From Lentzea tibetensis (GTDB lineage: Bacteria; Actinomycetota; Actinomycetes; Mycobacteriales; Pseudonocardiaceae), in NCBI RefSeq assembly GCF_007845675.1, contig NZ_VOBR01000030.1:60120-124119 (forward strand): a DNA stretch of 64,000 nucleotides, read 5' to 3'. The notes beneath the pieces were generated by a model. It ran no database searches and had not been told where the DNA came from. It worked only from the letters and a program-made list of their open reading frames with translations. Both the position numbers and the translations under genes were made by a program. Position 1 is the first letter of the stretch. Each line of letters opens with the position of its first letter. Shown piece by piece: positions 5,822 to 34,527 of this stretch.

Positions 5822-5963
5822 CCCAGTCGCGACACGCCGTAGCTGATCGGCCGAGTTCCGAGTACTCCCTGTGTTCAACTGTGACACGAGTGGTTGACGG
5901 TGTGTGAGTTCTTGCTGCGACAAATGGGTCTGATTGGTCTAATGCGGTGGGAGGTGATGGTCG

Positions 5964-7786: not shown

Positions 7787-7810
7787 CCGCGCTCGGGCGT
7801 TTACCGGGGT

Positions 7811-8293
7811 GTGGGGTTCGCGGGGTTCGAGGAGTTCGTGACGGAGCATCGCGCTGCGTTGCTGCGTTCCGCGTACCTGCTCACCGGGGAGCGGCACCGC
7901 GCCGAGGACCTGGTGCAGCAGGCGCTGACCAAGCTCGCCGAGCGGTGGGACCGGATCGGGCCGTCGCACCCGGAGGCGTTCGTGCGCACCGTGCTCTACC
8001 GCGACGCCGTGTCCGGCTGGCGCAAGCTGCGGCGCGAGCGGGTGACCGAGACCCCGCCGGACGTAGCCGGGTGGGGTGACCTGGCTGAGGACGTCACCCG
8101 GCGGCAGGAGTTGTTGCGCGCGTTGGCGGACCTCACGCCCAAGCAGCGGGCGGTGCTGGTGCTGCGGTACTTCGACGACCTCACCGAGTCCCAGACCGCG
8201 GCGGTGCTCGGGGTGCGGGTCGGCACGGTGAAGAGCCAGACGCACCTGGCGTTGCGGCGGATGCGTGAGCAGATGCAGGAGGTGACCGCGTGA
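7811..8293 (+). CDS. SigE-family ECF RNA polymerase sigma factor
   Basis: 160 residues with region 2 (EHRAALLRSAYLLTGERHRAEDLVQQALTKLAERW, residues 12-46) and region 4 (LTPKQRAVLVLRYFDDLTESQTAAVLGVRVGTVKSQTHLALRRMRE), separated by a short linker. The compact size and the YLLTG...AEDLVQ pattern match the actinobacterial SigE-type ECF subfamily. No anti-sigma zinc-finger gene follows. Instead the stop overlaps a membrane protein gene by 4 bp, and that protein or its neighbour is the likely regulator. The GTG at 7811 is the most plausible start. Confidence 0.92.
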   Translation: MGFAGFEEFVTEHRAALLRSAYLLTGERHRAEDLVQQALTKLAERWDRIGPSHPEAFVRTVLYRDAVSGWRKLRRERVTETPPDVAGWGDLAEDVTRRQELLRALADLTPKQRAVLVLRYFDDLTESQTAAVLGVRVGTVKSQTHLALRRMREQMQEVTA

Positions 8294-9456
8294 GCGAGAG
8301 CGACATCAGGGACGCGTTGCGGAACCTCGCGCTGGACGCGCCCGAAGGTTCCGATGATCTCGCCACCGACGCGTGGGCGGGTGGTCAGCGGTTGCGCCGG
8401 CGTCGTTCCGCGACGCGCATCGGCCTGGCCGCCGCGGCGACCATCGCGGTGTGCGGGGTGATGCTCGTCGTCACGACACCGGCCCCCGAGGAACACCTGC
8501 CGCTCGCGCCGCCGCCGATCACGCAGACCACGCCCCGCAAGGTGTCCGAGACGCTGCCGCCGAAGAAGGACGAGCTCGCGCTGCCGCAGCTGACGACGTC
8601 CTACCCGGTGGCCGTCGACCCCGACCCGGCGCAGGCCACCCTGCTGAACGCCGATCCCGTGCGGCGTGCGCTGGCGTTGTTCCAGACCTCACCGGACATG
8701 CCCGTCGTGGTGCTCGGGGACGACGGCCGGATTCGGTGCATCGACGAGGACCTGCAGCCGATCGTCACCGCCGGTGGCGACACCGTCGGCGCGCTGCGGC
8801 CCGGTGCGCTGTCCGCCGACGGCAGGACCGCGGTGTTCCCGCAGCGCGACTCCGTCGTGCTGGTCGACCTGACGACCGGCGCCGACCGCCGCATCCCCGC
8901 TCCGGGCGCCAACGAGCAGGCGGCGCTCAGCGCCGACGGCCTGCTGGTCGCCGTCACCACCGGCAGTTCCACGTCACTGCGCCGCGTTCCGGGCGGTGAG
9001 GTGGTGACCGAGTGGCCGCGGCCCGCGCCGATGGCCGGTGGCGCGGTCGACCCGCCGTTCCACGGTGCCGGCGACGTGGGCGGCACCCCGTCCGTGTGGT
9101 CGATGGAGCCCGACGGCGAGTCGACCACGTACCGGATGCCCGACCTCGTCGGCCAGTTCTGGGGTCTGCCCGCGGTGAACCGGACCAGGCTCGCCGCCGC
9201 CGGTTTCGGCGGGTACGACACCGACGCGGTGGTCATCGCGCTGCACGACCACCACCGGGGGCCCGTGCGCGTGCTCGGCTCACCGACCACGGACGGCAGG
9301 TGGAAGGGCGGCACCCGGCCGTTGCGCTGGCTCGACGACACCACGTTGCTGCTGCTCAGCGATGGTCCGGAACCCGTGGTGCTGTCCTGGAACACGAACA
9401 CCGGGGAGATCAACCGGGTGATGCATGTGAAACGGATGGGGACAATCGTCCTTTAG
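8290..9456 (+). CDS. membrane-anchored beta-rich protein, likely sigma-factor partner
   Basis: 388 residues. A cytoplasmic N-terminus of about 35 residues (SESDIRDALRNLALDAPEG...) precedes one transmembrane helix (RIGLAAAATIAVCGVMLVVT, about 38-57). A Pro-rich spacer and an extracellular beta-strand-rich domain follow, with repeated blade-like elements such as ALSADGRTAVFPQRDSVVLVDLTTG. The topology (short cytosolic region, one helix, sensor domain) resembles the non-zinc anti-sigma or regulatory proteins often encoded next to SigE-type factors. This role is inferred from translational coupling (GTGA overlap) and not from a recognised anti-sigma motif. It is paralogous to the next gene. Confidence 0.7.
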   Translation: MSESDIRDALRNLALDAPEGSDDLATDAWAGGQRLRRRRSATRIGLAAAATIAVCGVMLVVTTPAPEEHLPLAPPPITQTTPRKVSETLPPKKDELALPQLTTSYPVAVDPDPAQATLLNADPVRRALALFQTSPDMPVVVLGDDGRIRCIDEDLQPIVTAGGDTVGALRPGALSADGRTAVFPQRDSVVLVDLTTGADRRIPAPGANEQAALSADGLLVAVTTGSSTSLRRVPGGEVVTEWPRPAPMAGGAVDPPFHGAGDVGGTPSVWSMEPDGESTTYRMPDLVGQFWGLPAVNRTRLAAAGFGGYDTDAVVIALHDHHRGPVRVLGSPTTDGRWKGGTRPLRWLDDTTLLLLSDGPEPVVLSWNTNTGEINRVMHVKRMGTIVL

Positions 9457-9474
9457 TTGGCGGACAATCGGTGC

Positions 9475-10515
9475 GTGGCGCCGAGGTCCCGGCTCGTCCC
9501 GGCCGCCGTGCTGGTCGCGGCGTTCGTGGCGACGGCTGTCGTGATGCGCCTCGAACCGTCGCTCCCGCCACCGAAACCGCCCGATGCCGTGGTGACCCGC
9601 GCGGTCGACGTCAACCTCCCGTTGCGCGGCACCGAGGACTCGCTGCGGTACCTGGACACGGACTTCCCCGCCCGCGTCGACCCCGATCCGGCCGGTGCGA
9701 TGCCGCTGCGGGAGAACCCGGTCACGCGCGCGCTCGCGTTGTTCCAGACGGCCGCGTCCGCGCCCGTGCTGGTGCTGGGCGAGGACGGCTTCCTGCGGTC
9801 GCTGGACGTGCCGGCCACGGCCACCAGCTCGGGCGAGCCGGTGTGGGCGATGCGGCCCACCTCGCTGTCCGGCGACGGCCGCACCGCGGTGTTCCCGCAG
9901 CGCGACGCGGTGCTGATCGTGGACCTCACCACCGGACTGAGCAGGAGCGTTCCGGTGCCGGGCGCCAACACGCACGCCGCGATCAGCCCCGACGGGAAGC
10001 AGCTGCTCACGGTCAGCGGCCGGGGTACGCAGCTGGTGGACGCCGCGGACGGCTCGGTGATCATCCGGATGTCGGACCGCAGGCGCCCGTCGTCGTTCTC
10101 CGGGAGCGACGCGACCGCGGCGGGCGTCAGCAACGGACGGCGCAACCCGGAGATCATGCTGTCGTACTTCTACGGGCCCGAGCACATCGGCCGAACGATC
10201 AGCCACTCGCTGAAACCGCTGGTGGACGACGTGCGCGACATCCCGGCGGCGCGTGGCCAGCGGATCGCCGTCGCGGGCAACGGCGGGTACGCCGTGCCGA
10301 TGGTGATCATCATGACCTACTACAGCTTCGTGCCGATGGCCGGAGCGCCGCCGCGGGTCCTGGGGGCGCCGTCCGGGGACGCTCGGGTGCTGCGCTGGTT
10401 CGACGATTCGACGTTGCTGGTGCTCAGCGGCGACCACATCCTGTCGTGGAACGTCGACACCGGCGAGATCAGGCGGGTCACGCACATCGCCCGGCACACC
10501 GAGATCGCGGTTTAA
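9475..10515 (+). CDS. paralogue of the preceding beta-rich membrane protein
   Basis: About 346 residues. From the GTG at 9475 it opens with a basic patch and a hydrophobic helix (LVPAAVLVAAFVATAVVM), then a Pro-rich spacer and a beta-propeller-like ectodomain. It shares long stretches with the previous protein, including NPV.RALALFQT, DGRTAVFPQRD.V.IVDLTTG and PGAN..AAIS.DG, but lacks the cytoplasmic N-terminal extension. The pair therefore arose by tandem duplication, with only the first copy keeping a possible sigma-contacting segment. A TTG at 9457 directly after the upstream stop is an alternative start; neither has a strong ribosome site. Confidence 0.65.
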   Translation: MAPRSRLVPAAVLVAAFVATAVVMRLEPSLPPPKPPDAVVTRAVDVNLPLRGTEDSLRYLDTDFPARVDPDPAGAMPLRENPVTRALALFQTAASAPVLVLGEDGFLRSLDVPATATSSGEPVWAMRPTSLSGDGRTAVFPQRDAVLIVDLTTGLSRSVPVPGANTHAAISPDGKQLLTVSGRGTQLVDAADGSVIIRMSDRRRPSSFSGSDATAAGVSNGRRNPEIMLSYFYGPEHIGRTISHSLKPLVDDVRDIPAARGQRIAVAGNGGYAVPMVIIMTYYSFVPMAGAPPRVLGAPSGDARVLRWFDDSTLLVLSGDHILSWNVDTGEIRRVTHIARHTEIAV

Positions 10516-10542
10516 CGGGACCCTTCACAGGAGTTAAACCGC
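10507..10542. repeat. 10-bp perfect inverted repeat between gene and MoxR operon
   Basis: GCGGTTTAAC and GTTAAACCGC separated by 16 bp. The left arm covers the stop codon of the upstream gene. It may be a terminator hairpin or an operator for the MoxR operon that starts about 50 bp further on. Confidence 0.5.
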
Positions 10543-10595
10543 ACGTCGGGAAGACTCGGTCCCGTCGCACAACCATGTCCATGGAGGCCTTCCTC

Positions 10596-11626
<1,031 letters not shown>

Positions 11627-11627
<1 letters not shown>

Positions 11628-12574
11628 TGAGCGAGTCGAAGAAGCCAGCCGAGCGCCCTTCGTGGGCGCCACCGGTGCTGCACGGCGGTCGCATGGAGGC
11701 CGCGCTGCGCATGCTGGAGCTCGACGTCCGGCGCAGGCTCGACGGCCTGCTCCAGGGCAACCACCTCGGCCTCGTGCCGGGGCCCGGCAGCGAGCCCGGT
11801 GAGGCGCGGACCTACCAGCCAGGCGACGACGTGCGCCGGATGGACTGGGCCGTCACCGCGCGCACGACCGTGCCGCACATCCGCGAGACGGTCGCGGACC
11901 GCGAGCTGGAGACGTGGGTCGCGATCGACCTGTCGCCGTCGCTGGACTTCGGCACGGCGGCGTGCGAGAAGCGCGACCTGGTGATCGCGGCCACCGCCGC
12001 GATCGCCCACCTGACCCGCGGCGGCGGCAACCGCATCGGCGCCGTCGTGTCGACCGGTGCGTCCACCGTCCGCATCCCGGCCCGCGGCGGACTCGCGCAC
12101 GCGCGCGGCATGATCCGCCGCATCGCCGAGATCCCCCGCGCCGGTGACGGCACCCGAGGTGATCTCGCCGAGCTGCTGGAACAGCTGCGCCGCCCGCCGC
12201 GCCGCCGCGGCCTCGTGGTGGTGGTCTCGGACTTCCTCGGCGGCATGGAGTGGCAGCGCCCGCTGCGCGCGCTGTCGGCGCGGCACGAGCTCGTCGCGGT
12301 CGAGGTGATCGACCCGCGGGACATCGACCTGCCCGACGTCGGTACCGTCGTGCTGTCCGACCCGGAGAGCGGCAGGCAGCGCGAGGTGCACGCGTCGGCG
12401 TTGCTGCGCAAGGAGTTCTCGGCCGCGGCCGCGGAACACCGCGCCTCGGTCGCGTCCGGTCTGCGCCGTGCCGGTGCCGGGCATCTGGTGCTGCGCACCG
12501 ATTCGGACTGGATCGCGGACATGGTCCGCTTCGTGGTCGCTCGCAAGCGGCGTTGGTCGGGAGGTGTGGCATGA
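11627..12574 (+). CDS. DUF58 domain protein
   Basis: 315 residues with the DUF58 core ARTYQPGDDVRRMDWAVTARTTVPHIRE at residues 60-87, followed by a degenerate von Willebrand A fold (VAIDLSPSLDFGT) with a partial MIDAS. It is cytosolic, with no transmembrane segment. The GTG start overlaps the moxR stop by one base and the stop overlaps the next ATG by 4 bp. In MoxR operons this protein is thought to be a client or adaptor; its molecular activity is not known. Confidence 0.9.
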
Positions 12575-13536
12575 GCTTGTCCAGCTTCGTCGCCCCCTGG
12601 TGGTTCCTGCTGTTGCTGGTGGTCGTCGCCCTCGCGGCGGGATACGTGGTGCTGCAACGGATCCGTCGCCGTCGGGTGATGCGCTTCACCAACCTCGAGC
12701 TGCTGGAGAAGGTGGCGCCCAAGCGCGAGGGCTGGAGCAGGCACGTGCCGGCGACCCTGCTGCTGGTGGCGTTGTCGTTGCTGACCGTCGCGCTGGCCGG
12801 GCCGACCGCCGAGCAGCGCGTGCCCCGCAACCGCGCGACCGTGATGCTCGTGGTCGACACGTCGCTGTCGATGAAGGCCACGGATGTGCAGCCGTCGCGG
12901 CTCGAAGCCGCTCAGGTGGCCGCGAAGTCGTTCGCCGAGGGCCTCACGCCCGGCATCAACCTGGGCCTGATCTCGTTCGCCGGCTCGGCGACCGTGCTCG
13001 TGGCGCCCACGACGGACCGTCCCGCGGTGACGCAGTCGATCGACGGCCTCAAGCTGGCTCAGTCGACCGCGACCGGTGACGCGATCGTCGCTGCCATGGC
13101 CGCGATCGACTCGTTCGGCAAGGTCGTCGGCGGCGCCGAGGGCCCGCCGCCCGCGCGCATCGTGCTGATGACGGACGGCAAGGAGACCGTCGGCACGCGC
13201 AAGGCGTTCGACGCGGCCGAGGACGCCAAGAAGGCGGGCATCCCGATCTCGACGATCTCGTTCGGCACCGAGGAGGGCACCGTCGACATCGAGGGACGGC
13301 AGCAGCCCGTCCCCGTCGACGACGAGTCGATGAAGGAGATCGCCCAGCTGTCCGGCGGCGAGTTCTTCAAGGCCGCGTCCGCCGAGGAGCTGCGCCGCGT
13401 GTACGACACGCTCGGCGAGCAGATCGGCTACGAGAAGAAGAAGGCGGACGCCTCGAAGCCGTGGCTCATCATCGGCACCCTGTCGTCGGTCTTCGCCGCC
13501 GCGCTGGCGCTGCTGCTGGGCCAGCGACTGCCCTGA
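12571..13536 (+). CDS. BatA-like VWA membrane protein
   Basis: 321 residues. Two N-terminal helices (about 8-30 and 55-73) flank a short basic loop, then a VWA domain with an intact MIDAS DTSLSMKATD (about residues 90-99), SATGD-like threonine site and MTDGKET. A final helix (LIIGTLSSVFAAALALLLG) sits at the C-terminus. This is the Aerotolerance/BatA layout. It completes the MoxR-DUF58-VWA operon and probably displays its metal-binding domain outside the cell. The stop at 13536 abuts the convergent stop of the TAXI gene. Confidence 0.9.
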   Translation: MSLSSFVAPWWFLLLLVVVALAAGYVVLQRIRRRRVMRFTNLELLEKVAPKREGWSRHVPATLLLVALSLLTVALAGPTAEQRVPRNRATVMLVVDTSLSMKATDVQPSRLEAAQVAAKSFAEGLTPGINLGLISFAGSATVLVAPTTDRPAVTQSIDGLKLAQSTATGDAIVAAMAAIDSFGKVVGGAEGPPPARIVLMTDGKETVGTRKAFDAAEDAKKAGIPISTISFGTEEGTVDIEGRQQPVPVDDESMKEIAQLSGGEFFKAASAEELRRVYDTLGEQIGYEKKKADASKPWLIIGTLSSVFAAALALLLGQRLP

Positions 13537-14394
13537 TCACCCGTGCAGGCGGCGGTACTCCGCCGCCGCACCGGGGTGGAGGCCGATCCGGCCGGTGACG
13601 ATCAGCGAGCGCACGTCGAGGAACTGGGTGCCCAGCGCCTGCGCGGGCACCAGCTGGGCCGCCCGCTGGACCAGCATCCGCACCACGGCACCGGCCAGCT
13701 CGTCCGGGAGCGTCGGCTTGCACACCAACAGGTTCGCCGTCCCCACGGTCGGCACCTCGGCCACCGAGTCGTACACGCCCGCGCGCACGGTCACCAGCTC
13801 GTAGACCGAGCCGTACGCGGCGCGCAGTCGGGGGATCTGCCCGTCGAGTGGCAGCAGGCGCAGCCCGCGCTCGCGCGCCAGCCGCGGTGTGGGCACGCCA
13901 CCGGACCAGAGGAACGCGGTGATCTCGCCGCGTTTCAACGCGTCCACGGCGTCGTCCAGCGGCATGTGCCGCACGTCCGCGCCGAGCTCCAGCCGGGAAC
14001 CCTGCAGCGCCGCACCGGAACCCAGTGCGCCCAGCGACACCGGTTTCCCGGCCAGGTCGGCGACGCCGCGCACCGGTGAGTCCGCGAGCACGACGAGCTG
14101 CAGGTAGTTCTCGTACACGCGGCCCAGTGCGAGCAGTTCGGGTGTGGCGCTGTCGGCCAGCGTCAGCGCCAGGTCCACCTCGCCGGCGCGCAGCCGGTTC
14201 AGGTTGTCCATGCTCCCGCCGCTCGCGACGGGCGTGATGCGCAGGCCGGACGGCGCGTTGGCGGCGAGCAGGCGGGCGAAGTCCAGGTACAGCCCGCCTT
14301 CCTCGCCCGCGGCGAGCACCAGCGAACCCGAAGGCTCGCCCGAGGAGCACGCGGACACGGCCAGCGCGCCGAGCAGGAACGTCCGCCGCTTCAC
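13537..14394 (-). CDS. TAXI-family substrate-binding lipoprotein
   Basis: 285 residues with a lipoprotein signal peptide (FLLGALAVSACSS; lipobox Cys near residue 16). The TAXI/TRAP-type binding fold shows AAGEEGGLYLDFARLLA near the N-terminus, VASGGSMDNLNRLRAGEVDLALTLAD and LAGKPVSLGALGSGAALQG. Such proteins bind small carboxylates. No TRAP membrane subunits (DctQM) are encoded nearby. Instead its start overlaps the stop of a histidine kinase gene by 4 bp, so it probably serves as the external ligand-sensing partner of that kinase rather than a transporter subunit. Confidence 0.85.
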   Translation of the reverse strand: MKRRTFLLGALAVSACSSGEPSGSLVLAAGEEGGLYLDFARLLAANAPSGLRITPVASGGSMDNLNRLRAGEVDLALTLADSATPELLALGRVYENYLQLVVLADSPVRGVADLAGKPVSLGALGSGAALQGSRLELGADVRHMPLDDAVDALKRGEITAFLWSGGVPTPRLARERGLRLLPLDGQIPRLRAAYGSVYELVTVRAGVYDSVAEVPTVGTANLLVCKPTLPDELAGAVVRMLVQRAAQLVPAQALGTQFLDVRSLIVTGRIGLHPGAAAEYRRLHG

Positions 14395-19582: not shown

Positions 19583-22500
19583 TCAACGTGCCGCGATCTC
19601 CGTCGCGAGCACCTCGACGTGCGGGGCGGCCAGCATGGTGAAGTGGTCGCCCGGCACGGTCACCACCTCGATGGGCTCTCGTGAGAACTCGGCCCACCCG
19701 CGCCACTGCTCGGCTGTGTCGCCCGCGTCGTGCGCGCCGAAGTACACGATCCGGCCCTCGAACGGTTCGGCAGGCGTGTAGGTGCTGCGCTGGTCGGCCC
19801 ACAGGGTGCGCAGGAAGCCGGTGAACCGCTCGGCGTCCATCTCCGGTGGCAGCAGGTCGAGCGCCCGCATCCGGGACCGCAGGTGCTCTTCCTGCGCGGC
19901 GTCGTCCAGTCCGGCGACGTCCGCGGCCCGGACACCCGGATCGCGGCCGTAGAGCCGGTGGAACAGCACCGCGACCGACTCGATCCACTCGGCGTGCGAG
20001 GCGGGTTCGGGAACGGGTGTCCGGCCCGGTGAGAACGTGTCCGCCATGCCGAGCAGGGCGACCTCCTCGCCGACTGCGCGCAGCCGGGTGGCGATCTCGA
20101 ACGCGACGCCGCCGCCGAACGAGTGCCCGACGAGGCGGTACGGGCCGTGCGGCTGCACGGACCGGATCTCGTCGAGGTACGCCGACGCCAGGTCCTCGAC
20201 CACGCTCGACCCCGTCGTGACGGGCTGCAGGCCGTACACCGTGAACGCCTGCGGCAGCCGGGTGACCAGGTCGTACAGCGACACCAGGCTGCCGCCCGCG
20301 CCGGGCAGCAGGAACAGCGGCACCGAGCCGGACGTCCGCAGCGGCACCACGACCCGCGGGTGGTCGAACGTGTCGAGCAGACGCACCAGCCCGGCCACCG
20401 TCGGCGCCTGGAACAGCGACGACAGCGGCAACCGCTCGCCGAACTCCCGTTCCACCGCGGCCAGCAGGCGCACCGCCAGCAGCGAGTGGCCGCCGGTGCG
20501 GAAGAAGTCGTCGTGCACGCCGATCGGGCGCACGTCGAGCACCTCCTCCCACAGCGCGGCCATCCGCAGCTCGCGGAAGTCGCGCGGTGCCACCGAGTCC
20601 GACATCGAACCGCCGGGCGTCGGCAACGCCCTGCGGTCGAGCTTCCCGTTCGGCGTGTACGGCAACGACGGCAGCGGCACCACGTGCGACGGCACCATGT
20701 ACTCCGGCAGCCGTTCGGCCAGGAACTCCCTGACGTCCGAGGCGTTTCCGGTCACGTACGCGACGAGACGCTCGTCGCGCAGCACCACCGCGGCCCCGGT
20801 GACGTGCGGGTGCTCGCGCAGCACCGACTCGATCTCACCGAGCTCGATGCGGTAGCCGCGCAGCTTCACCTGGTCGTCCGTGCGGCCGAGGAACTCCAGC
20901 ACGCCGTCACGCCGGTACCGCACCAGGTCACCGGTGCGGTAGATCCGCCCGTCCCCGAAGGAGTTCGGGAGGAACCGCTCGGCCGTGAGCTCCGCCCGGC
21001 CGAGGTACCCGCGCGTCACGCCCGCGCCGCCGATGTGCAGTTCTCCCGGCACGCCAACGGGAACGGGCTCGTGGTGCGCGTCCAGCACGTACAACGAGGT
21101 GTTCGCGATGGGCCGTCCGATGGCACACGTGTCGCCGGTGGTCGACCAGATCGTCGTCTCGGTCGGCCCGTACATGTTGCGCACCGGCACCAGCTCGGTG
21201 AGCTCCTCTGCGAGCGGCGGCGACAGGGCCTCGCCACCGACCAGCAGAGAGCTCAACGAGGACAGGGCTTCCCTGCCGCCGGGCTCCAGCAGGATCATCT
21301 CCGCCTGCGACGGCGTGCACTGCAGGTGCGTGACCCCGTGCGCGCCGATCAGTCCGGGCACGGACGTGTCCGCGGCGCGCTGCGCGTGCAGCGATCGCGC
21401 CTCCGCCAGGTGTTCCAGCGACGCCAGCACCTCGTCCTCCGGCACGCCGAAGTCGATGAGGCACGCGACCTCGTCGACACCGGCGTCCGCGATGGCGGCC
21501 AGCTTCTCCGCGCACTGCTCGGGCGTGCCGAACAGGCCGGACGAGTGGTAGTGCCGCTCGAACGCCCGGTCCAGCAACGCCTCCACCTCGTCGTCGGACG
21601 CCGTCACGAGGTTGCGCATCAGGTTCGCGGACGTCGCCAGGTAGCGCCGGAACGGATCACGCACGACCGAGCGGACGACGTCCGCGTCCGGGCCGACGAA
21701 CGCGTGCACCATCAGCGAGACGCGTCCCGGCCCGTCATGTCCGGCCCGAGCGCGTGCCTTGCGGTACAACGACACCCGCTCGGCGAGCTGGTCGAGGTCC
21801 TGGCCGAGCAGGTGGGTCAGCAGGTTCGACCCGCTCTCGCCCGCCGCCTCGAACGTGGCCGGGCTGCCCGCCGCGGTGAGCCACACCGGCAGCTCGGGCT
21901 GCACGGGCGCGGGGTGCACCCGCACGTCGATCTCCTCGCCCTCGCCGTTCATCCGGCTCACCGAGCCGCCGCGCCACAGCGTGCGGATCTCGTCCATCGC
22001 CGACATCATCACGTTCTTGCGGTCGGCGTAGTTCTCCGGTGCCAGCACGAAGTCGTTGGCCTGCCAGCCGGACGCGAATGACACACCCACCCGGCCACCG
22101 GACAGGTTGTCGACGACCGACCACTCCTCGGCTACCCGCAGCGGGTTCTGCAGCGGTGCCACGACACTGCCAGCCCGGATGCCGATTCGCGACGTCACGG
22201 CCGCGATCGCCGCGCCGACGACCGCGGGGTTGGGAAACGGCCCGCCGAACTCGTGGAAGTGCCGCTCGGGCGTCCAGACCGCCTCGAAACCGTTGCGGTC
22301 GGCGAACTTCGCCCCCTCCAGCACCAGCCGGTACGGGTCGTCCGCTACGGACGTCCCGAAGTAGAACAGGCTCAGGTCCGCGACCTTGCCCGGTGTCGCG
22401 GCCGCGTCCGGTTGCAGCACCACGGTCGTGCCCGCGGTGAGCGTCCAGAGCAGCTCCAGCACGGAGATGTCGAACGACACCGTCGTGACCGCGAGCCACT

Positions 22501-24535
22501 TCGCCGGCCGGTCGAGCACGTCGTCCATCGCCGCGCAGAAGTTCACCGCGTTGCGGTGCTCGACCATGACGCCCTTGGGCCGCCCGGTCGAACCCGAGGT
22601 GTACATGACGTACGCGAGGTCCTCCGGTTGCGGTCCCTCGAACGCCACTCCGTCCAGCAGCTGCAGTGCCCGGAGCTCGTCGGCGTCCAGCACCAGCGCC
22701 ACCGACGCGTCCCGCGCGATGTGCTCCCGCCGGGCGGGTGGTGCGGCCGGGTCGAGCGGCAGGTACGCGGCACCGCAGCGCAGCACCGCCAGCAACGCCG
22801 TGACCAGCGATGCCGTGCGGGGCAACAGGATTCCGACGAGCGAGCCCCTGCCGACGCCGCGCTCGGCGAGCCGGGCGGCCAGCCGCCCGGACTCCTCCCA
22901 CAGCTCGGCGTAGGTCAGCGCCGCCGAACCGGCGTGCAACGCGATCGCGTCCGGGGTGCGCGCCACCTGCTGTGCCACCAGTTCGGGCAACGTCGCCTGA
23001 GCGACTGGCCGCGACGTGGCGTTCCACTCGACGAGCAGCCGGTGCCGTTCGGCCGAACCGAGCATCCCGAGCTTCGACACCGGCGTCTCCGGTGCGCCGA
23101 GTGCGTTGCGCAGCAACGTCTCCCAGTGCTCCAGGTAGCCGGCCGCGGTCTCCGGGTCGAACAGGTCGGCCGCGAACTCCAGCGCGCAGCGCAGCTCGTC
23201 CGGGTGTTCCTCGACGGTGAGCGTCAGGTCGAACTTCGACGCGCCGCCGTGCACCTCCTCGGGGTGCGCCACGAGGTCGCCGATCGTCGTCGTGCGGATC
23301 GGTGCCTCGTACTGGATGAACATCGTCTGGAACACCGGCGCGTGCCGCAGCGAGCGGTCCGGCCGCAGCCGCGCGACGACCTGCTCGAACGGCACGTCCG
23401 CGTGGTCGTAGCCCGCGAGGCAGCGGGTGTGCACCCGGTCGAGCAGCGCGCGGAACGACGGGTCGCCCGCCAGGTCGACCCGCCACGGCAGCGCGTTGAC
23501 GAAGTACCCGACGAGCGGGGTCGTCTCCGGCCGCTGCCGGTAGCTGACCGGCGAGCCGATCACCAGGTCGTCGGTGCGCGCGTACCGGCCGAGCACGGCC
23601 GACCACGCCGACAGCAGCACGGTGTACGGCGTGACCCGCGCGGCCTTCGCCAGCTCGCGCACGCCGCGCACCACGTCCTCACCCAGCACGCGCTTGGCGA
23701 CGCCGCCGCGGTAGGACTGCTGCGCCGGACGCGGCCGGTCGGTCGGCAGCTCCAGCAGCGGGGGAGCGCCGTCGAGCACGTGCTGCCAGTACGCCAGCTG
23801 CCGCTCTTCGTCCACAGGGGACAGTGCGCGGTGCCGCCACACGGCCACGTCCGGGTACTGCACGGTCAGCGCGGGCGGTTCGTCGCCCGCGTAGAGCGTG
23901 AACAGCTCGCGGAACAGCACACCGAGCGACCACGCGTCCGCGCAGATGTGGTGGACGGACAGCACGAGGTGGTGCTGCTCCGGCCCGAGCCTCAGCAGCA
24001 CCGCCCGCATCAGGCGGCCCGCCGCGAGGTCGAACGGCCTGGCAGCGTGAGCCTGGATCACCGCATCGGCGTCCGACGGTGCCACGTCGACGCACGGCAG
24101 CGGCACCGGCAGCGGTGGCAGCACGACCTGCTCCGGCCCCGGCCGGAACGCGGTGCGCAGCGACTCGTGCCGTGCCGCGACGGTGGTGAGACAGCGTTCG
24201 AGCCGGGCCGCGTCGAGCGGCCCGTCGAACCGGACGCCACCGGTCAGCACGTAGGTGGCCTGGTGGCCGTCCAGCTCGTCGAGCAGCCACAGCGCGCGCT
24301 GGTTCGGTGCCAGCGGCAGGTTCTCCCGCCGCACCACCTCGATCGCGCCGATCGCGGCCTCGTAGGCCCGCAGGTGCTGCACCAGCTCGGCCTTGTGCGA
24401 CGCGAGCCGGAGCCGCAGCCCGGTCGTCATCGCGTCCTTCGGCGCGGACACCCGCAGTGCCTCGCCGTCGAGCAGCAGGCGGATCTTGGCCGCCCTGAGG
24501 TCGTCCAGGAGTTCAGCCACGAATTCTCCGGTCAC
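19583..24535 (-). CDS. NRPS: docking-C-A(luciferase-like monooxygenase)-T-TE
   Basis: 1650 residues. An N-terminal TubC-like docking region (1-55) accepts the chain from the upstream PKS. The C domain is about 75-490 with HHICADAWS near 195. The A domain runs about 520-1310 with [14 protein letters not shown] near 645. After FDISVLELL (about 688) a flavin luciferase-like monooxygenase of about 320 residues is inserted (720-1045; LSLFYFGTS, WTPERHFHEFGGPFPNP, GVSFASGWQANDF), and the A domain resumes through YGPTETTIWS and [10 protein letters not shown]. The pocket reads D-I-L-Q-L-G-M-I-W, matching published glycine codes. The T domain has GGHSLL (about 1352) and the TE has GHSFGG and a C-terminal GDHFTM histidine. 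GTG at 24535 overlaps the PKS stop. Oxidised glycine followed by TE matches the terminal-amide logic known from MtaG/MelG. Confidence 0.93.
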   Translation of the reverse strand: MTGEFVAELLDDLRAAKIRLLLDGEALRVSAPKDAMTTGLRLRLASHKAELVQHLRAYEAAIGAIEVVRRENLPLAPNQRALWLLDELDGHQATYVLTGGVRFDGPLDAARLERCLTTVAARHESLRTAFRPGPEQVVLPPLPVPLPCVDVAPSDADAVIQAHAARPFDLAAGRLMRAVLLRLGPEQHHLVLSVHHICADAWSLGVLFRELFTLYAGDEPPALTVQYPDVAVWRHRALSPVDEERQLAYWQHVLDGAPPLLELPTDRPRPAQQSYRGGVAKRVLGEDVVRGVRELAKAARVTPYTVLLSAWSAVLGRYARTDDLVIGSPVSYRQRPETTPLVGYFVNALPWRVDLAGDPSFRALLDRVHTRCLAGYDHADVPFEQVVARLRPDRSLRHAPVFQTMFIQYEAPIRTTTIGDLVAHPEEVHGGASKFDLTLTVEEHPDELRCALEFAADLFDPETAAGYLEHWETLLRNALGAPETPVSKLGMLGSAERHRLLVEWNATSRPVAQATLPELVAQQVARTPDAIALHAGSAALTYAELWEESGRLAARLAERGVGRGSLVGILLPRTASLVTALLAVLRCGAAYLPLDPAAPPARREHIARDASVALVLDADELRALQLLDGVAFEGPQPEDLAYVMYTSGSTGRPKGVMVEHRNAVNFCAAMDDVLDRPAKWLAVTTVSFDISVLELLWTLTAGTTVVLQPDAAATPGKVADLSLFYFGTSVADDPYRLVLEGAKFADRNGFEAVWTPERHFHEFGGPFPNPAVVGAAIAAVTSRIGIRAGSVVAPLQNPLRVAEEWSVVDNLSGGRVGVSFASGWQANDFVLAPENYADRKNVMMSAMDEIRTLWRGGSVSRMNGEGEEIDVRVHPAPVQPELPVWLTAAGSPATFEAAGESGSNLLTHLLGQDLDQLAERVSLYRKARARAGHDGPGRVSLMVHAFVGPDADVVRSVVRDPFRRYLATSANLMRNLVTASDDEVEALLDRAFERHYHSSGLFGTPEQCAEKLAAIADAGVDEVACLIDFGVPEDEVLASLEHLAEARSLHAQRAADTSVPGLIGAHGVTHLQCTPSQAEMILLEPGGREALSSLSSLLVGGEALSPPLAEELTELVPVRNMYGPTETTIWSTTGDTCAIGRPIANTSLYVLDAHHEPVPVGVPGELHIGGAGVTRGYLGRAELTAERFLPNSFGDGRIYRTGDLVRYRRDGVLEFLGRTDDQVKLRGYRIELGEIESVLREHPHVTGAAVVLRDERLVAYVTGNASDVREFLAERLPEYMVPSHVVPLPSLPYTPNGKLDRRALPTPGGSMSDSVAPRDFRELRMAALWEEVLDVRPIGVHDDFFRTGGHSLLAVRLLAAVEREFGERLPLSSLFQAPTVAGLVRLLDTFDHPRVVVPLRTSGSVPLFLLPGAGGSLVSLYDLVTRLPQAFTVYGLQPVTTGSSVVEDLASAYLDEIRSVQPHGPYRLVGHSFGGGVAFEIATRLRAVGEEVALLGMADTFSPGRTPVPEPASHAEWIESVAVLFHRLYGRDPGVRAADVAGLDDAAQEEHLRSRMRALDLLPPEMDAERFTGFLRTLWADQRSTYTPAEPFEGRIVYFGAHDAGDTAEQWRGWAEFSREPIEVVTVPGDHFTMLAAPHVEVLATEIAAR

Positions 24536-27500
24536 AGCACGAACTCCTCTCGTTCCGAGTCGTCGGCCAGCTCGGCGAGCTGGGCCGTCACCGTCTCCGT
24601 CAGCTCGGCGAGGCTCGCCCCGCTGAGCACCCGCACCGCGGGCACGTCGACCCCGAGGTCGCGCTTGAGGTCCCCGAGCAGGTCCATGGACATCAGCGAG
24701 TCCAGCCCGAGGTCCGTCATCGGTTGCTCGGAGTCGATCCGAGCCGGGTCGATCTCCAGCACGAGCGCGAGCCGGTCGCGCAGCTGCGCGCCGATGTCGG
24801 ACGACGCGAACGACGCGGAGCCGCTCGTCTGCCGCACGACCTTCAGCCGCATGCCCAGCGCCTGCGCGAACACGCCACCGGAATCCGACCAGCGCACCGT
24901 GCCCGAGCAGACGTCGCCGCTCGTGTCCGCCGCGGTCGCGTGCGCCAGCACCTGCCCCACCGGCTCGCGCAGCACGTCCACCCGGTCGACACCGACCGGC
25001 AGAACCAGCGAGCTGCCGTCGAGCAGCAGGCCGAGCAGCTGGAACCCGGTGTCCAGCAACGCCTCCTGGCCGGACGGCCGCAACGAGGCGAACGACTCGC
25101 CGTCGGCCACCCACGCCCGGTCGACGCAGCGCAGCGACGGTCCGTACTCGACGCTGCGCGCCATGATCCGGTAGTACTCGGCCGCGTCGACCTGGCGGCC
25201 GTGCGGGTCGATCGGGTCCGCCTTGATGACCGGTTCGGGCGTCAGCACCCCCGACGCGTGCAGCGTCCGTTCCGGTCCACTGCGGACGGTGAAGCGCATG
25301 CGGTCGTCCAGCGCCACCTGGATGGTGCGCGTGCCGGTCAGCGCCAGCACCGCGTGGAACTCCACGTGCTCGGCGCGGTGCCGCGCACCGGTGAGCTCCC
25401 GCGCCGCGGTCAGCGCCATCTGGACGTACCCGACGCCCGGCACCACGACCTGCCCCTGCACCCGGTGGTCGTCGAAGACGTCCACGCCGCCGGGGGAGAC
25501 CACGCGCTGCCACAGGTGTTGCGGCGCGACCACGTCGTCATTCTTGTCAGGCAGCCACAGCCGCCTGCGCTGGAACGGCGTCGTCGGCAGCGCCACCTTG
25601 CGGCCGCGGTACGGCCAGCGCACCGCGGCACCCGCGACCCACGCGGTCGCGAGGTCGTCGGCGGGCGGGACCGACCGGCCCAGCACGAAGTCCGACAACG
25701 CGGCGGCGAGCTCGGCGGTGCTCGTGCCCGCCACGGCGAGCCGGAACGCCTGCGCCGCGCGGCCGGTGTTGGCCGTGGCGCACACGTCCGCGACGTGCAG
25801 GTCGCCCTCGGCCAGCCGGTCCGCGTACAGCAGCGCCAGCTCGTGCAGCGCGGCCTCGGTGTGCGCCGACAGCGCCAGCACGTACCGGCTGTGCGCGGAG
25901 CGCTCGACCGGGCTGCGCGGCGCCTCGGCGACCACGACGTGCGCGTTGGTGCCGCCGAAACCGAACGAGCTGACACCGGCGACCCTGCGCGGCCACTCGG
26001 CGTTCGCCGCCGGGATCGACAGCGGCGACCCGATCGCGTCGATGTGCGGGTTCAGCACACCGAGGTTGCGGTGCGCGGGAATCCGGCCGTTGCGCAGCGA
26101 CAGCACGACCTTGATCAGGCCGGCGACGCCGGCGGCCGACTCCAGGTGGCCGATGTTCGTCTTCGCCGACCCGAGCAGGCAGCCCTCGTTGCCGCGCAGC
26201 ACGTCCGCGAGCGCCCCGTACTCGATGGGGTCACCCAGCGGCGTGCCGGTGCCGTGCGCCTCGACGTAGCCGATCTCGGCGGGCGTCACGCCCGCGTCGG
26301 CCAGCGCGTCGGTGATCACGGCGCGTTGCGCGGGGCCGTTCGGCGCGGTGAGCCCGTTGCTGCGGCCGTCCTGGTTCACCGCGGAACCGCGGATGACCGC
26401 CAGCACCTCGTCGCCGTCGGCCAGCGCGGTCGACAACGGCTTGAGCACCACGACACCGCAGCCCTCGGAACGCACGTAGCCGTCCGCGTCCGCGCTGAAC
26501 GTCTTGCAGCGGCCGTCCGGCGCGAGCATCTTCGCCCGCGTGAACACCGTCGACAGGTGCGGCGCGAGGATCAGGTTCACCCCGGCCGCCAGCGCGATGC
26601 GGCTCTCACCGCTGCGCAGCGACGCGCACGCCTGGTGCACCGCCACGAGCGACGACGAGCACGCCGTGTCGATCGCGACGCTCGGGCCGCGCAGGTCGAG
26701 CACGTAGGACAGCCGGTTCGCGGCGATGCTCAGCGCGTTGCCGGTGCCGTAGTGGGCGTCCAGCCGGTCGCCGAGCAGCCGCGCGTAGTCGTTGTTGCTG
26801 ATGCCGACGAACACGCCAGCCCGCGTGCCAGCCAGCGAGGTGGGCGCGATCCCGGCGTGTTCCAGCGCCTCCCACGCGACCTCGAGCAGGAGTCGTTGCT
26901 GCGGGTCCATCCCGACGGCCTCGGACGGCGCGATGCCGAAGAACTCGGCGTCGAACCCGGCCACGTCGTCCAGGAAGCCGCCGCGCACGCCGTCCCGCTC
27001 GGTGATCGCGTCACCGCCGCGGTCGAGCAGGTCCCAGAACTGGTCCGGGTTCTGCGCGCCGGGGAACCGGCAGCCGATCCCGATGACCGCGACGGGCTCG
27101 TCGGCGCCGTTGGCCGCCACCGACGGCCGGTGCTCGTCACCGGAGAGGAACCGGGCGACGGCCTCCGGCGTGGGGTGGTCGAACAGCAGCGTCGCGGGCA
27201 GCGGACGCCCCATGAGGCGCTGCAGGTCACCGGAGATCGCGACCGCGGTGACCGAGTCGACGCCCGCGCTCGCGAACGCCTGGCCCGGTGCGATGCCCCG
27301 GCCGAGCCGGTCCGTGACCGCGGCGAGCACCTCGTCGTAGATCGGCCGCCAGCGCCCGACCACGTCGAGCGCGCCGTCGAGGTAGGCCTTCCGGCACGCC
27401 CTCCGCGCGATCTTGCCACTGGTCGTCTTCGGCACGCTGCGGGTCCGGATCAGCACCAGCTCGTGCAGTGACACCTCGTGGTCCGCGGCGAGCGCGGCCG

Positions 27501-28959
27501 CCACGGCGGGCCCGGCGTCGACCGCTTCGTCGACGACCTCCTGCACGAGCACGAGCTTCTCGTCGTCGTCCCCGACGGTGAACGCGGCGCCGCAGCCGGG
27601 ACGCAGGCCGGGGTGGGCCTCCTCGGCGGTGCGCTCCAGGTCCTGCGGGTACAGGTTGCGGCCGTGCTGGATGATCAGGTCCTTCATCCGGCCGGTGAGG
27701 AACAGCTCGCCGGTGTCGTCGAGGAAACCGAGATCACCGGTGCGCAGCCACGTCCCCGGCTCGCCGGGCAGCTCGTTGCCGAACGTCGCCAGGCTCTCCT
27801 CCGGCCGCTGCCAGTAGCCGATCCCGGTGCTGGACCCGGTCGTCCAGACCTCGCCGACCGCGTTCGGGCCCAGTGCGACGCCGCTGTGCGGCGAGACGAT
27901 CCGCAGTCGCTGGTCACCGGACATCCGGCCCAGCCCGACCAGCGGGTGCTCACCCGGCCGCACCTCGTCGCGCTCCAGCGCCTTGCGGTCCACAGTGGAC
28001 ACCTTCGGCAGGTCGCCGCTGCCGGGGCCGCAGACGAACACCGAGTTCTCCGCGAGCCCGTAGCACGGGAACATCGTCTCGGGCCGGAGGCCGTGCGGGC
28101 CGAACGTCTCGGCGAACGCGCGCACCGTGTCCGCGCGCACCGGCTCGGCCGCGTTGTACGCGACCCGCCAGCTGCTCAGGTCGAGACCTTCGCGCTGCTC
28201 CGGCGTGGTGCGCCGGACGCACAGGTCGAAGGCGAAGTTCGGTGCCCCGCTGACGGTTCCGCCGTGCTCGCTGATGGCGCGCAGCCAGCGGATCGGGTGC
28301 TGCAGAAAAGCGGACGGAGGCATGACGACGCACTCGGCGCCCCAGTGGAAGGCCTGGAGCAGCTTCGCGATGAGGCCCATGTCGTGGAACAGCGGAAGCC
28401 ACGACACGAACTTCGGATCGCCGCCGTGCGCGATCCCGTCGGCGAGCAACTTCAGGTTTCCCAACAGGTTCGCGTGCGTCAGCACGACGCCCTTGGGGTT
28501 CCCGGTGGAACCCGAGGTGTACTGCAGGAGAGCGACGTCGGGGAGTGCGGGCTCACTCCATTCGCCGGAGGCGTCCGGCAGCCGATCGGTCGCGATCACC
28601 TTGGTACCGGGGAACTCCAGATCCTGCGGGGTGAGCACGAGCGACGCCTTGGCATCGGCGACGATCGCGCGCAGGCGGCCGAGGTGCTTGTCGGACCGGG
28701 GCGGATATGCGGGCACCGCGATCACGCCGGCGTACAGGCAGCCGAGGAACGCGGTGACGAAATCGGGACCTGACGGGTAGAGCAGCAGCGCTCGTTCGCC
28801 CGGCTGACCCAGTTGCGCGGCGATCGAACGGGCTTTCCGGTCGATCTCCGCGTAGTCCGTGCGGACGGCGATGTTCTCGCCGTCCGCCAGGAAGGTGAGG
28901 GCGGTGTGGTGGGGGCGCTGTCGTGCGTGGCCGCGTAACAGGTCGACCATGCTCTTCAT
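24532..28959 (-). CDS. AT-less PKS: FAAL-ACP-KS-DH-ACP
   Basis: 1475 residues. The fatty acyl-AMP ligase (1-545) has YTSGSTGNPKGVVLTH near 146 and the FAAL-type GRMKDLIIQHGRNLYPQD, so it adenylates a fatty or aryl acid and loads it on ACP1 (GVDSVTA, Ser near 569). The KS (about 615-1030) is complete: DTACSSS (Cys 767), EAHGTGT (His 902) and NIGHL (His 938). The KS-AT linker leads straight into the post-AT motif LPTTPFQRRRLWLP with no AT between. The DH (about 1150-1390) has HRVQGQVVVP and DTGFQ. ACP2 has GLDSL (Ser near 1421). No KR or ER is present. The extender must be loaded in trans. ATG at 28959 overlaps the exporter stop. Confidence 0.93.
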   Translation of the reverse strand: MKSMVDLLRGHARQRPHHTALTFLADGENIAVRTDYAEIDRKARSIAAQLGQPGERALLLYPSGPDFVTAFLGCLYAGVIAVPAYPPRSDKHLGRLRAIVADAKASLVLTPQDLEFPGTKVIATDRLPDASGEWSEPALPDVALLQYTSGSTGNPKGVVLTHANLLGNLKLLADGIAHGGDPKFVSWLPLFHDMGLIAKLLQAFHWGAECVVMPPSAFLQHPIRWLRAISEHGGTVSGAPNFAFDLCVRRTTPEQREGLDLSSWRVAYNAAEPVRADTVRAFAETFGPHGLRPETMFPCYGLAENSVFVCGPGSGDLPKVSTVDRKALERDEVRPGEHPLVGLGRMSGDQRLRIVSPHSGVALGPNAVGEVWTTGSSTGIGYWQRPEESLATFGNELPGEPGTWLRTGDLGFLDDTGELFLTGRMKDLIIQHGRNLYPQDLERTAEEAHPGLRPGCGAAFTVGDDDEKLVLVQEVVDEAVDAGPAVAAALAADHEVSLHELVLIRTRSVPKTTSGKIARRACRKAYLDGALDVVGRWRPIYDEVLAAVTDRLGRGIAPGQAFASAGVDSVTAVAISGDLQRLMGRPLPATLLFDHPTPEAVARFLSGDEHRPSVAANGADEPVAVIGIGCRFPGAQNPDQFWDLLDRGGDAITERDGVRGGFLDDVAGFDAEFFGIAPSEAVGMDPQQRLLLEVAWEALEHAGIAPTSLAGTRAGVFVGISNNDYARLLGDRLDAHYGTGNALSIAANRLSYVLDLRGPSVAIDTACSSSLVAVHQACASLRSGESRIALAAGVNLILAPHLSTVFTRAKMLAPDGRCKTFSADADGYVRSEGCGVVVLKPLSTALADGDEVLAVIRGSAVNQDGRSNGLTAPNGPAQRAVITDALADAGVTPAEIGYVEAHGTGTPLGDPIEYGALADVLRGNEGCLLGSAKTNIGHLESAAGVAGLIKVVLSLRNGRIPAHRNLGVLNPHIDAIGSPLSIPAANAEWPRRVAGVSSFGFGGTNAHVVVAEAPRSPVERSAHSRYVLALSAHTEAALHELALLYADRLAEGDLHVADVCATANTGRAAQAFRLAVAGTSTAELAAALSDFVLGRSVPPADDLATAWVAGAAVRWPYRGRKVALPTTPFQRRRLWLPDKNDDVVAPQHLWQRVVSPGGVDVFDDHRVQGQVVVPGVGYVQMALTAARELTGARHRAEHVEFHAVLALTGTRTIQVALDDRMRFTVRSGPERTLHASGVLTPEPVIKADPIDPHGRQVDAAEYYRIMARSVEYGPSLRCVDRAWVADGESFASLRPSGQEALLDTGFQLLGLLLDGSSLVLPVGVDRVDVLREPVGQVLAHATAADTSGDVCSGTVRWSDSGGVFAQALGMRLKVVRQTSGSASFASSDIGAQLRDRLALVLEIDPARIDSEQPMTDLGLDSLMSMDLLGDLKRDLGVDVPAVRVLSGASLAELTETVTAQLAELADDSEREEFVL

Positions 28960-30227
28960 CGGAGGGGTATCTCCTCTTGCCGCAGATTCGGGACTACGTG
29001 GTCGTTGTCTATGTAGCGGGTCGTCAGCAAGATCAGGGTGCCGCTGAGGCCCGCCACCCAGGCCAGCGCGAGCAGGCTCGTGGCCGCTCCGTGTGGCGCG
29101 GTGAACGTGGTGATGGCGAGCGAGAGCACGCCCCCTGCGCCTACGAGTCCGTACGCCCAGGCGTAGGCCTGAGCACGTACCCGCGGCGGCGAGACGTAGG
29201 TGACGAGCGTGTAGAAAGCCGGCTGGTAAGCGCCGATCATCACGGCGTTGAAGAACTTCACCACCAGCACGGTGCTCTCCCACGGCATCAGCACCATCGC
29301 GCTTTGCGTGCCCGCGACGATCGCGATCGTGAAGCCGACGACCAGACCGAGCCCGCGGACGTTGCCACGCGAGACGGCGCGTTCGGCCATGATCGCACCG
29401 AGCACGATGCCGACGATGAGTCCGATGCCACCGAGCGCGAGGATCGTCCCGCGCCCGACCGGACCGTATCCGAATCTCTGCTCGAAGAACAAAGAATGCA
29501 GCTGGCGCAACGGAACGATGAGCACTCCGAGCAGCAGCGCGCCGGCCCACAGGCCGCGCAGGGTCTTCACGGCGAACAGCTGGCGGCACGCCTCGCGGAA
29601 CGGCACGGCCGGTTGCCGCGTCGTCTCACCCATCGTGCCGCCGCGCACTGGTTCCTTCAGCCGCAGGCCGACGAGTGCGATCACGAAGGTGGGCAACGAG
29701 ATCAGCACGAACGTCGTCTGCCAACCGTACTCGGAGCCGAGCCAGCCGATCAGCACGCCCGCCGCCGCGGCGCCGGGGTTCGCCAGGCGGTGCACGAAGA
29801 AGACGCCGGGCAGGTTGCGCGGCGGGTAGAGGTCACCGAGCAGGCTCGAGTGGATCGGCTCGTTGGACACTCGCGCGAGACCCGCGATCACGCGCAGCAC
29901 GACGAAAATCGTGAACGTGCTGGCGAGCCCGGTGAAAGCACCGGCAAGACCCCAGATCAGCGCCGCGCAGCACACCACTCGCACCCGGTTGGCCCGGTCG
30001 CCGATCACACCGGCGGGCACCGCGCCGAGCATCGCCGCGAGCGCGAGGATCGTGCCCATCGCGATGATCTGCGAGTTGGACAGCCCGAACGCGTCCCTGA
30101 TCTCCGGTGTGAGTGTCTGGAAGGCGAGCGCGTCCAGCTCGTCGGAGATGTTCAGTCCGAACAGGACGGCCAGGGGGAAGAGCGGCGCTCCTCCGGTGAG
30201 GCGTTCCCGCAGCGCGAGCTTGTGCAT
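28956..30227 (-). CDS. MFS transporter, exporter of locus 1
   Basis: 423 residues with about 12 helices. The early segment FGLNISDELDALAFQTLTPEIRDAFGLSNSQI and the cytoplasmic GVIGDRANRVRVV loop are typical of MFS drug/sugar-type carriers. It is the first gene of the biosynthetic operon, and its TGA overlaps the PKS ATG, so co-production with the synthases is expected. Export or self-resistance is the likely job, inferred from position. The 79-bp gap to the next upstream gene is the only space for an operon promoter; I see no strong -35/-10 pair there. Confidence 0.82.
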   Translation of the reverse strand: MHKLALRERLTGGAPLFPLAVLFGLNISDELDALAFQTLTPEIRDAFGLSNSQIIAMGTILALAAMLGAVPAGVIGDRANRVRVVCCAALIWGLAGAFTGLASTFTIFVVLRVIAGLARVSNEPIHSSLLGDLYPPRNLPGVFFVHRLANPGAAAAGVLIGWLGSEYGWQTTFVLISLPTFVIALVGLRLKEPVRGGTMGETTRQPAVPFREACRQLFAVKTLRGLWAGALLLGVLIVPLRQLHSLFFEQRFGYGPVGRGTILALGGIGLIVGIVLGAIMAERAVSRGNVRGLGLVVGFTIAIVAGTQSAMVLMPWESTVLVVKFFNAVMIGAYQPAFYTLVTYVSPPRVRAQAYAWAYGLVGAGGVLSLAITTFTAPHGAATSLLALAWVAGLSGTLILLTTRYIDNDHVVPNLRQEEIPLR

Positions 30228-33010: not shown

Positions 33011-33724
<714 letters not shown>

Positions 33725-33759
33725 AAACTTCGTACAAACCGCCAAGACGGAGGACGTAA

Positions 33760-34527
33760 GTGACGGGACTGCTCGAAGGCAAGCGACTGCTGATCACCGG
33801 TGTCATCACCGACGCGTCGATCGCCTTCCACGTGGCACGGGTCGCGCAGGAGCAGGGCGCGGAGGTCGTGCTCACCGGGTTCGGCAGGCTGAGTCTCGTC
33901 GAGCTGATCGCGAAGCGGCTCCCGAAGAAGCCGCCGGTGGTCGAGCTCGACGTGCAGAACCAGGAGCACCTCGACACGCTGGCCGACCGCGTGCGCGAGC
34001 ACGTCGACGGGCTCGACGGCGTCGTGCACGCCATCGGCTTCGCGCCCCAGTCGTGCCTCGGCGCGCCGTTCATGGACGCGCCGTGGGAGGACGTGGCGAC
34101 GGCCATGGAGGTCTCCGCGTTCTCGTACAAGTCGCTGGTGAAGGCCACCCTGCCGTTGATGGGCCCCGGCTCGTCGGTCGTCGGCCTCGACTTCGACGCG
34201 CGCCAGGCGTGGCCCGCCTACAACTGGATGGGCGCGGCGAAGGCCGCGTTCGAGTCGGTCAACCGCTACATGGCGCGCGACCTCGGCCCGCAGGGCATCA
34301 GGGTCAACCTGATCTCGGCCGGTCCGGTGAAGACGATGGCGGCCAAGTCCATCCCCGGCTTCATCGAGCTGGAGAAGATGTGGGCGGAGAAGGCGCCGCT
34401 CGGCTGGGACGTCGAGGACGCCGAGCCGGTCGCGAAGTCCGTCTGCGGCCTGCTGTCCGACTGGTTCCCGGCGACCACCGGCTCGATGGTGTTCGTCGAC
34501 GGCGGCGTGCACTTCTTGGGTCTGTAG
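33760..34527 (+). CDS. inhA: NADH-dependent enoyl-ACP reductase
   Basis: 255-residue FabI/InhA-type enoyl reductase. LLITGVITDASIAFHVA near the N-terminus replaces the usual GxxxGxG; VVHAIGFAPQSCLGAPFMD and the active site VVGLDFDARQAWPAYNWMGAAKAAFES with Tyr and Lys in the InhA register identify it, as does PVKTMAAKSIPGF in the substrate loop. It completes the fatty acid elongation cycle. It begins with GTG 35 bp after fabG and ends at a strong hairpin. Confidence 0.94.
   Translation: MTGLLEGKRLLITGVITDASIAFHVARVAQEQGAEVVLTGFGRLSLVELIAKRLPKKPPVVELDVQNQEHLDTLADRVREHVDGLDGVVHAIGFAPQSCLGAPFMDAPWEDVATAMEVSAFSYKSLVKATLPLMGPGSSVVGLDFDARQAWPAYNWMGAAKAAFESVNRYMARDLGPQGIRVNLISAGPVKTMAAKSIPGFIELEKMWAEKAPLGWDVEDAEPVAKSVCGLLSDWFPATTGSMVFVDGGVHFLGL

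Follow-up and report, generated by a model that had tools for sequence, protein, structure and literature searches.

A glycine module with an embedded luciferase-like monooxygenase in Lentzea tibetensis and its predicted role in primary fatty amide release

Introduction

Does a nonribosomal peptide synthetase (NRPS) module that loads glycine and carries an oxygenase within its adenylation (A) domain leave the glycine in its product, or does it cut the glycine and keep only the nitrogen? This question is raised by a locus of Lentzea tibetensis (GCF_007845675.1, contig NZ_VOBR01000030.1, positions 60,120-124,119, forward strand), where a luciferase-like monooxygenase (LLM) is embedded in the A domain of a module that ends in a thioesterase (TE). 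The whole stretch of 64,000 nt is referred to below as the window; coordinates are window positions, and the gene under study and the other genes of its cassette lie on the minus strand.

The closest precedents are the modules of myxothiazol and melithiazol biosynthesis, the terminal ones being presumably those named MtaG and MelG. Their flavin-dependent monooxygenase (FMO) is described between the a4 and a5 motifs of a glycine A domain, and in the published model hydroxylation is followed by cleavage of the carbinolamide to a C-terminal amide, after which the TE hydrolyses the glyoxyl thioester (PMC10204066). A like mechanism has been given for amide release in a further report (PMC11342130), and the off-loading of myxothiazol has been described as cleavage of glycine by a monooxygenase domain to leave a terminal carboxamide (PMC9396620). 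A sequence-only reading of the window had pointed to this chemistry, and the published models do state it (PMC10204066). Other oxygenases in glycine A domains have also been reported. In SolF of the solanimycin pathway the FMO is inserted between a8 and a9, and the alpha-hydroxyglycine is internal and kept (PMC10204066), while 38 crz-like clusters, all from Serratia and Pseudomonas, hold a monooxygenase within a glycine-recruiting A domain, as the window does, and are associated with acylated short peptides (PMC11342130).

This article describes the domain organization, genomic context and distribution of the Lentzea module, and weighs the possible fates of its glycine residue.

Domain organization of the terminal module

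The gene (19583-24535) encodes a protein of 1650 aa, assigned by Pfam, NCBIfam and motifs as a terminal NRPS module of the order TubC_N-C-A(LLM)-T-TE. It starts with a GTG codon that overlaps the stop of the upstream gene (GTGA). The Pfam matches follow one another as TubC_N, Condensation, AMP-binding split by Bac_luciferase, PP-binding and Thioesterase. A TubC-type N-terminal docking domain (24368-24520; PF18563, 50.8 bits) precedes the condensation (C) domain (23033-24325; PF00668, 313.1 bits, motif HHICADA). The A domain is divided into an N-terminal half that reaches A4 (22394-22975; PF00501) and a C-terminal half from A5 to A10 (20642-21364; TIGR01733, PF13193), with the oxygenase between them (21401-22375). 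A peptidyl carrier (T) domain with the motif GGHSL (20375-20560; PF00550) and a type I TE with the motifs GHSFG and GDHF (19595-20320; PF00975, 94.5 bits) come directly after the A domain. The motifs of the C, carrier and TE domains and of A10 were all found, and the order C-A(MOx)-T-TE proposed from the sequence was recovered by Pfam and motifs.

The insert matches TIGR04020, the profile of MupA/Atu3671 FMN-dependent luciferase-like monooxygenases, at 464.7 bits (E 1.7e-139; residues 724-1048 in ORF numbering), far above the curated cut-off of 244.45 bits and over profile positions 1-339 of 341. The A4 motif (FDISVLELL) is separated from A5 (YGPTE) by 434 residues. A second NRPS of the window has two ordinary A domains in which this distance is 93 and 85 residues, so that about 340 residues are inserted between A4 and A5 here, the insert proper covering approximately 21353-22399. 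Full-length profile match and motif spacing together rule out a chance resemblance, and the oxygenase is, as judged from these features, a whole domain within an otherwise complete A domain. The monooxygenase that the sequence-only reading had placed between A4 and A5 is thus borne out by both TIGR04020 and Pfam (Bac_luciferase); its span of 21400-22480 takes in most of the insert but also the A4 motif.

The closest solved structure is PuwE (6ket; E 1.5e-100, query residues 2-328 of 330), followed by the alkanal monooxygenase alpha chain (8cbb; E 2.2e-22). The residues E-R-H-F of the window oxygenase and of PuwE align with E-H-H-F of the latter, and E-R-H is invariant across 20 aligned embedded domains; these conserved residues are kept, over a nearly complete profile. 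An AlphaFold model of the A(LLM) region, built from a two-row input (the window and the Lentzea orthologue described below), had a mean pLDDT of 32.9, and the luciferase fold is assigned here by homology. The monooxygenase of PuwE, together with an aminotransferase, has been assigned to a 3-amino-2-hydroxy acyl unit (PMC4219810), and therefore to hydroxylation alpha to a carrier thioester. It differs from the window oxygenase in that it is not embedded in an A domain and is described with the aminotransferase between PKS and NRPS modules (PMC4219810).

The specificity pocket read from the alignment is D-I-L-Q-L-G-M-I-W, in agreement with the glycine code previously read by eye, and the final K is provided by the A10 motif NGKLDR. 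The complete code is identical to DILQLGMIWK, given for all four MOX-bearing glycine domains in a signature survey of 2025 (PMC12283262), and the A domain is accordingly predicted to be glycine-specific. The introduction of that survey places MOX inserts in the A8-A9 region (PMC12283262), whereas the insert described here lies between A4 and A5.

A three-gene cassette with a fatty acyl loading domain

The terminal module is the last of three overlapping genes that span 10.6 kb. The first (28956-30227; PF07690, 113.9 bits) encodes an MFS transporter, a probable exporter, and overlaps the second by ATGA. The second (24532-28959; 1475 aa, Pfam and NCBIfam) encodes a FAAL-ACP-KS-DH-ACP protein, so that a fatty acyl loading domain and a glycine module appear, from the gene arrangement, to sit in one operon-like set. 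Its fatty acyl-AMP ligase (FAAL) domain (27373-28956) matches the NCBIfam fatty-acid--AMP ligase models; it is followed by a first acyl carrier domain with two PP-binding stretches and the motif GVDSV (approximately 27130-27324), a ketosynthase (KS) with the motifs DTACSS, HGTGT and NIGH (26062-27099; Pfam), a dehydratase (DH; 24823-25524; Pfam PKS_DH_N and PS-DH) and a second acyl carrier domain (24592-24786; Pfam PP-binding). HRVQGQVVVP and DTGFQ in the dehydratase are taken to be its motifs.

Neither an AT nor a KR was found by Pfam in the 1475-aa protein, and the nature of the acyl chain is uncertain for this reason. The KS-DH junction holds, just before the DH, the stretch LPTTPFQRRRLWL, which we take to resemble the usual post-AT linker; such a linker in a protein that lacks an AT suggests that an ancestral AT was lost from the KS-DH module. 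Elsewhere in the genome there are two short AT frames, of 324 and 350 aa. The cassette differs from the myxothiazol and melithiazol systems in how its chain would be supplied. There, the chains come from large thiazole-forming PKS/NRPS lines; here, they would come from FAAL-ACP-KS-DH-ACP without AT or KR. The terminal modules themselves are alike by published description, with a glycine A domain, an oxygenase at A4/A5 and a TE next to it.

No flavin reductase was found among the three cassette genes by Pfam. Two reductase-type genes lie nearby (33020-34527; PF13561), are mabA- and inhA-like by eye and are probably housekeeping genes. Another NRPS of the window (47901-53917; A-T-C-A-T) overlaps the frame that follows it, which contains a KS; this KS is the window's second to lack a complete AT, the AT trace there being weak, 40 residues long and below the cut-off. 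Elsewhere in the genome, a large modular PKS is encoded on contig C35 (20172-112959; 19 acyltransferase matches, mostly in very long frames), and contig C23 holds a further TIGR04020 oxygenase (L074:11408-12994), which scores above the cut-off, is not embedded and lies near an NRPS with a TE.

Conservation within the genus

A scan of named genomes, of a kind that detects close relatives only, found one orthologue of the module, in Lentzea sp. NBRC 105346 (L038), with about 80 percent identity and the same neighbours on both sides. Ka/Ks between the two was measured for six synthetase domains (0.14-0.40) and, in the FAAL protein, for five domains (0.10-0.33) and the KS-DH linker (0.45). Among 25 genomes of the genus, a synthetase match at E<=1e-250 was found in three: the own genome, G165 (81 percent identity) and G162 (45 percent). 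The MFS gene (E<=1e-80) occurs in two of the 25, the own genome and G165, matching the distribution of the orthologous synthetase. The match in G162 (L041/L071) is another C-A(LLM)-T-TE protein, and no FAAL or KS match was found within its mapped 20 kb.

The C-terminal 722 residues of the FAAL-KS-DH protein (KS end, linker, DH and ACP) were compared with 296 genomes of the class, three candidates being scored per genome. They were matched over their full length in no genome but the own one; 14 others match the KS end and linker only, up to query position 368.

Embedded oxygenases in other bacteria

Of 150 genomes in the family, 31 (including the own genome) carry TIGR04020 matches at E<=1e-60, 55 in all. 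The part of these that was fetched and mapped comprises three kinds of loci: oxygenases embedded in an A domain, oxygenases placed before a C domain, and stand-alone proteins. In the class, embedded copies were found in at least four of 296 genomes, own included, when three candidates were scored per genome. A search of plasmids gave 61 records. In 28 of them one place spans 80 percent or more of the A(LLM) region, and ten of these 28 were examined in detail; the hosts of the 28 include Deinococcus, Methylobacterium, Streptomyces, Rhizobium, Shinella, Aminobacter, Ruegeria, Paracoccus, Nostoc and Burkholderia, among others. No LLM match at E<=1e-10 was found in 56 loci of viral contigs.

In total 22 embedded copies were mapped. 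Twenty of them were aligned, L072 and L073 being the other two and non-embedded LLM copies being left out; these 20 A4/A5-embedded copies belong to Actinomycetota, Deinococcota, Pseudomonadota and Cyanobacteriota. All share a glycine-type code, D-[IM]-[LV]-Q-x-G-[ML]-[IV]-W, which suggests glycine as the substrate of the oxygenase.

The domains that follow the carrier vary. A TE in the same protein is present in four of the 22 (the window, L038, L041 and L058) and a reductase domain (PF07993) in two (L047 and L048), leaving 16 with neither. L046 and L072 continue into a C domain; for L059 the C domain is encoded by the following frame (L047 and L059 are split across frames), and L062 is followed by a gene that starts with C. 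A KS-bearing gene follows L042, L043, L044, L045, L056, L057, L060 and L073, and a PKS gene is upstream or divergent at L061, L063, L064 and L065. With 16 of 22 modules lacking a TE or reductase, the insertion by itself is ruled out as proof of chain termination, and hydroxyglycine may therefore stay in the chain in other systems; as judged from these contexts, the A4/A5 insertion marks a glycine module and not necessarily a chain end. As only four of the 22 have a TE, the amide prediction for the window rests on the TE context as well as on the insertion.

L061, L063, L064 and L065, from plasmids of Ruegeria, Aminobacter, Paracoccus and Shinella, encode A(LLM)-T proteins with glycine codes and a length of about 1540 aa. 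They adjoin a type I PKS (KS-AT-KR-DH-T-TE in L064) and are surrounded by polysaccharide genes, glycosyltransferase genes among them. The one of the four that was scanned, L063, has a formyltransferase-like domain at its N-terminus (PF00551), a sign that the starter may be N-formyl-hydroxyglycine or a glyoxylyl unit. The Deinococcus copy (L056) also has polysaccharide genes nearby, and a formyltransferase was not seen in it on scanning. The loci L042-L046, L056, L057, L060 and L073 encode glycine-coded embedded oxygenases with no release domain, most of them followed by a KS gene (L046 by C). In L047 (ORFs 4268-12457 and 11023-14157) and L048 (7602-13085), a glycine-coded A(LLM) and a carrier are joined to a thioester-reductase-type domain (PF07993), and no TE was found. 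On a plasmid of Streptomyces sp. NBC_01343, a flavin reductase gene comes immediately after the gene for a C-A(LLM)-T-TE protein (L058:7471-13265; code D-M-V-Q-L-G-M-V-W), unlike in the window cassette; a lysX gene and further genes of amino-acid type lie close by.

A quick tree was built from 55 LLM rows; many of its branches are weak, and 21 of 51 inner branches are drawn open. In it, the neighbours of the window domain and L038 are embedded copies and some stand-alone ones, while the other TE-linked copies, L041 and L058, are sisters placed elsewhere. These two separate places, on weak branches, speak against a single clade of TE-linked copies. A topology in which the 22 embedded rows all share a single origin was not rejected (p-AU 0.40).

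Proposed mechanism and fate of the glycine residue

The gene probably encodes a chain-terminating, glycine-cutting module that completes a small lipid assembly line, the product of which would be a primary fatty amide. The FAAL would load a fatty acid, and the KS/DH pair would hand the C domain an acyl group that may be 2-enoyl; malonyl and reducing steps may be supplied in trans, or the KS and DH may act only on the preloaded chain. The A domain would load glycine onto the T domain and the C domain would form N-acylglycyl-S-T, on which the embedded FMNH2-dependent oxygenase would hydroxylate the glycine alpha carbon beside the thioester. Collapse of the carbinolamide would give the primary fatty amide and glyoxylyl-S-T, keeping only the nitrogen of glycine, and the TE would then hydrolyse the glyoxylyl group off the enzyme. 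Alternatively, the TE may hydrolyse N-acyl-hydroxyglycine, which would collapse to the same amide. The predicted product is a fatty primary amide, which may be a 2-enamide.

Survival of the carbinolamide, with the TE releasing the N-acyl-alpha-hydroxyglycine acid as the product or a cyclised form being kept, is unlikely; the acyclic acid is itself expected, from chemistry that we take to be general, to break down to the amide. The 16 of 22 embedded modules with neither TE nor reductase after the carrier, in which the chain may continue to a KS or C domain, lend this alternative some weight, as does solanimycin B, reported to keep an alpha-hydroxyglycyl residue that is attributed to the FMO in a glycine A domain (PMC10204066). 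However, SolF and the window share an oxygenase in a glycine A domain but not its position: the FMO of SolF is described at a8/a9, whereas the window oxygenase lies at a4/a5, as in the myxothiazol and melithiazol enzymes (PMC10204066).

Still less probable is an embedded oxygenase that is inactive or bypassed, so that the module would release an ordinary N-acylglycine. Omission of the FMO step has been reported to give solanimycin A (PMC10204066), and the cassette genes include no flavin reductase by Pfam; against this, the oxygenase is complete over 339 of 341 profile positions with its conserved residues kept, and its Ka/Ks against the Lentzea orthologue is 0.224 at 84 percent identity between the two species. 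Action on the acyl chain or nitrogen instead of the glycine alpha carbon is highly improbable: the LLM family is broad, and LLM domains of PKS modules have been assigned the hydroxylation and oxidation of polyketide chains (PMC8739492), but all 20 aligned A4/A5-embedded copies, from four phyla, lie in glycine-coded domains.

Amide release, as first proposed for this locus, is thus supported as the best interpretation, the predicted product resting on sequence and on the published models. The net chemistry proposed here on N-acylglycines equals that of the animal enzyme PAM (peptidylglycine alpha-amidating monooxygenase), which is not known to share an origin with the flavin oxygenase. PAM performs alpha-hydroxylation and N-C cleavage to give an amide and glyoxylate, and also converts N-oleoylglycine to oleamide; it is described as copper-dependent, with a separate lyase domain (PMC5461114, PMC6995544), and acts on free substrates, whereas the window oxygenase is predicted to be FMNH2-dependent and to act on an enzyme-bound substrate.

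Concluding remarks

The kind of terminal module described here is known from myxobacteria and its oxygenase belongs to a curated family; what appears to be new is the stripped-down lipid assembly line that would feed it. No published account of such a module behind FAAL-ACP-KS-DH-ACP was recognised in a few keyword searches, none of them naming Lentzea and covering mostly papers available without subscription. Tentatively, the three genes might constitute a dedicated bacterial fatty acid primary amide synthase, an enzyme-bound and independently evolved counterpart of the animal PAM route in which flavin replaces copper and the PKS module, having lost its AT and KR, borrows them from primary metabolism.

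If the amide prediction is true, a three-gene cassette of 10.6 kb makes simple lipid amides by sacrificing glycine. It is small enough to be expressed whole and would allow a clean test of chain cutting versus hydroxyglycine retention. With the same glycine-coded insertion found before a TE (four), a reductase (two) or neither (16 of the 22), the fate of hydroxyglycine becomes testable with defined examples.
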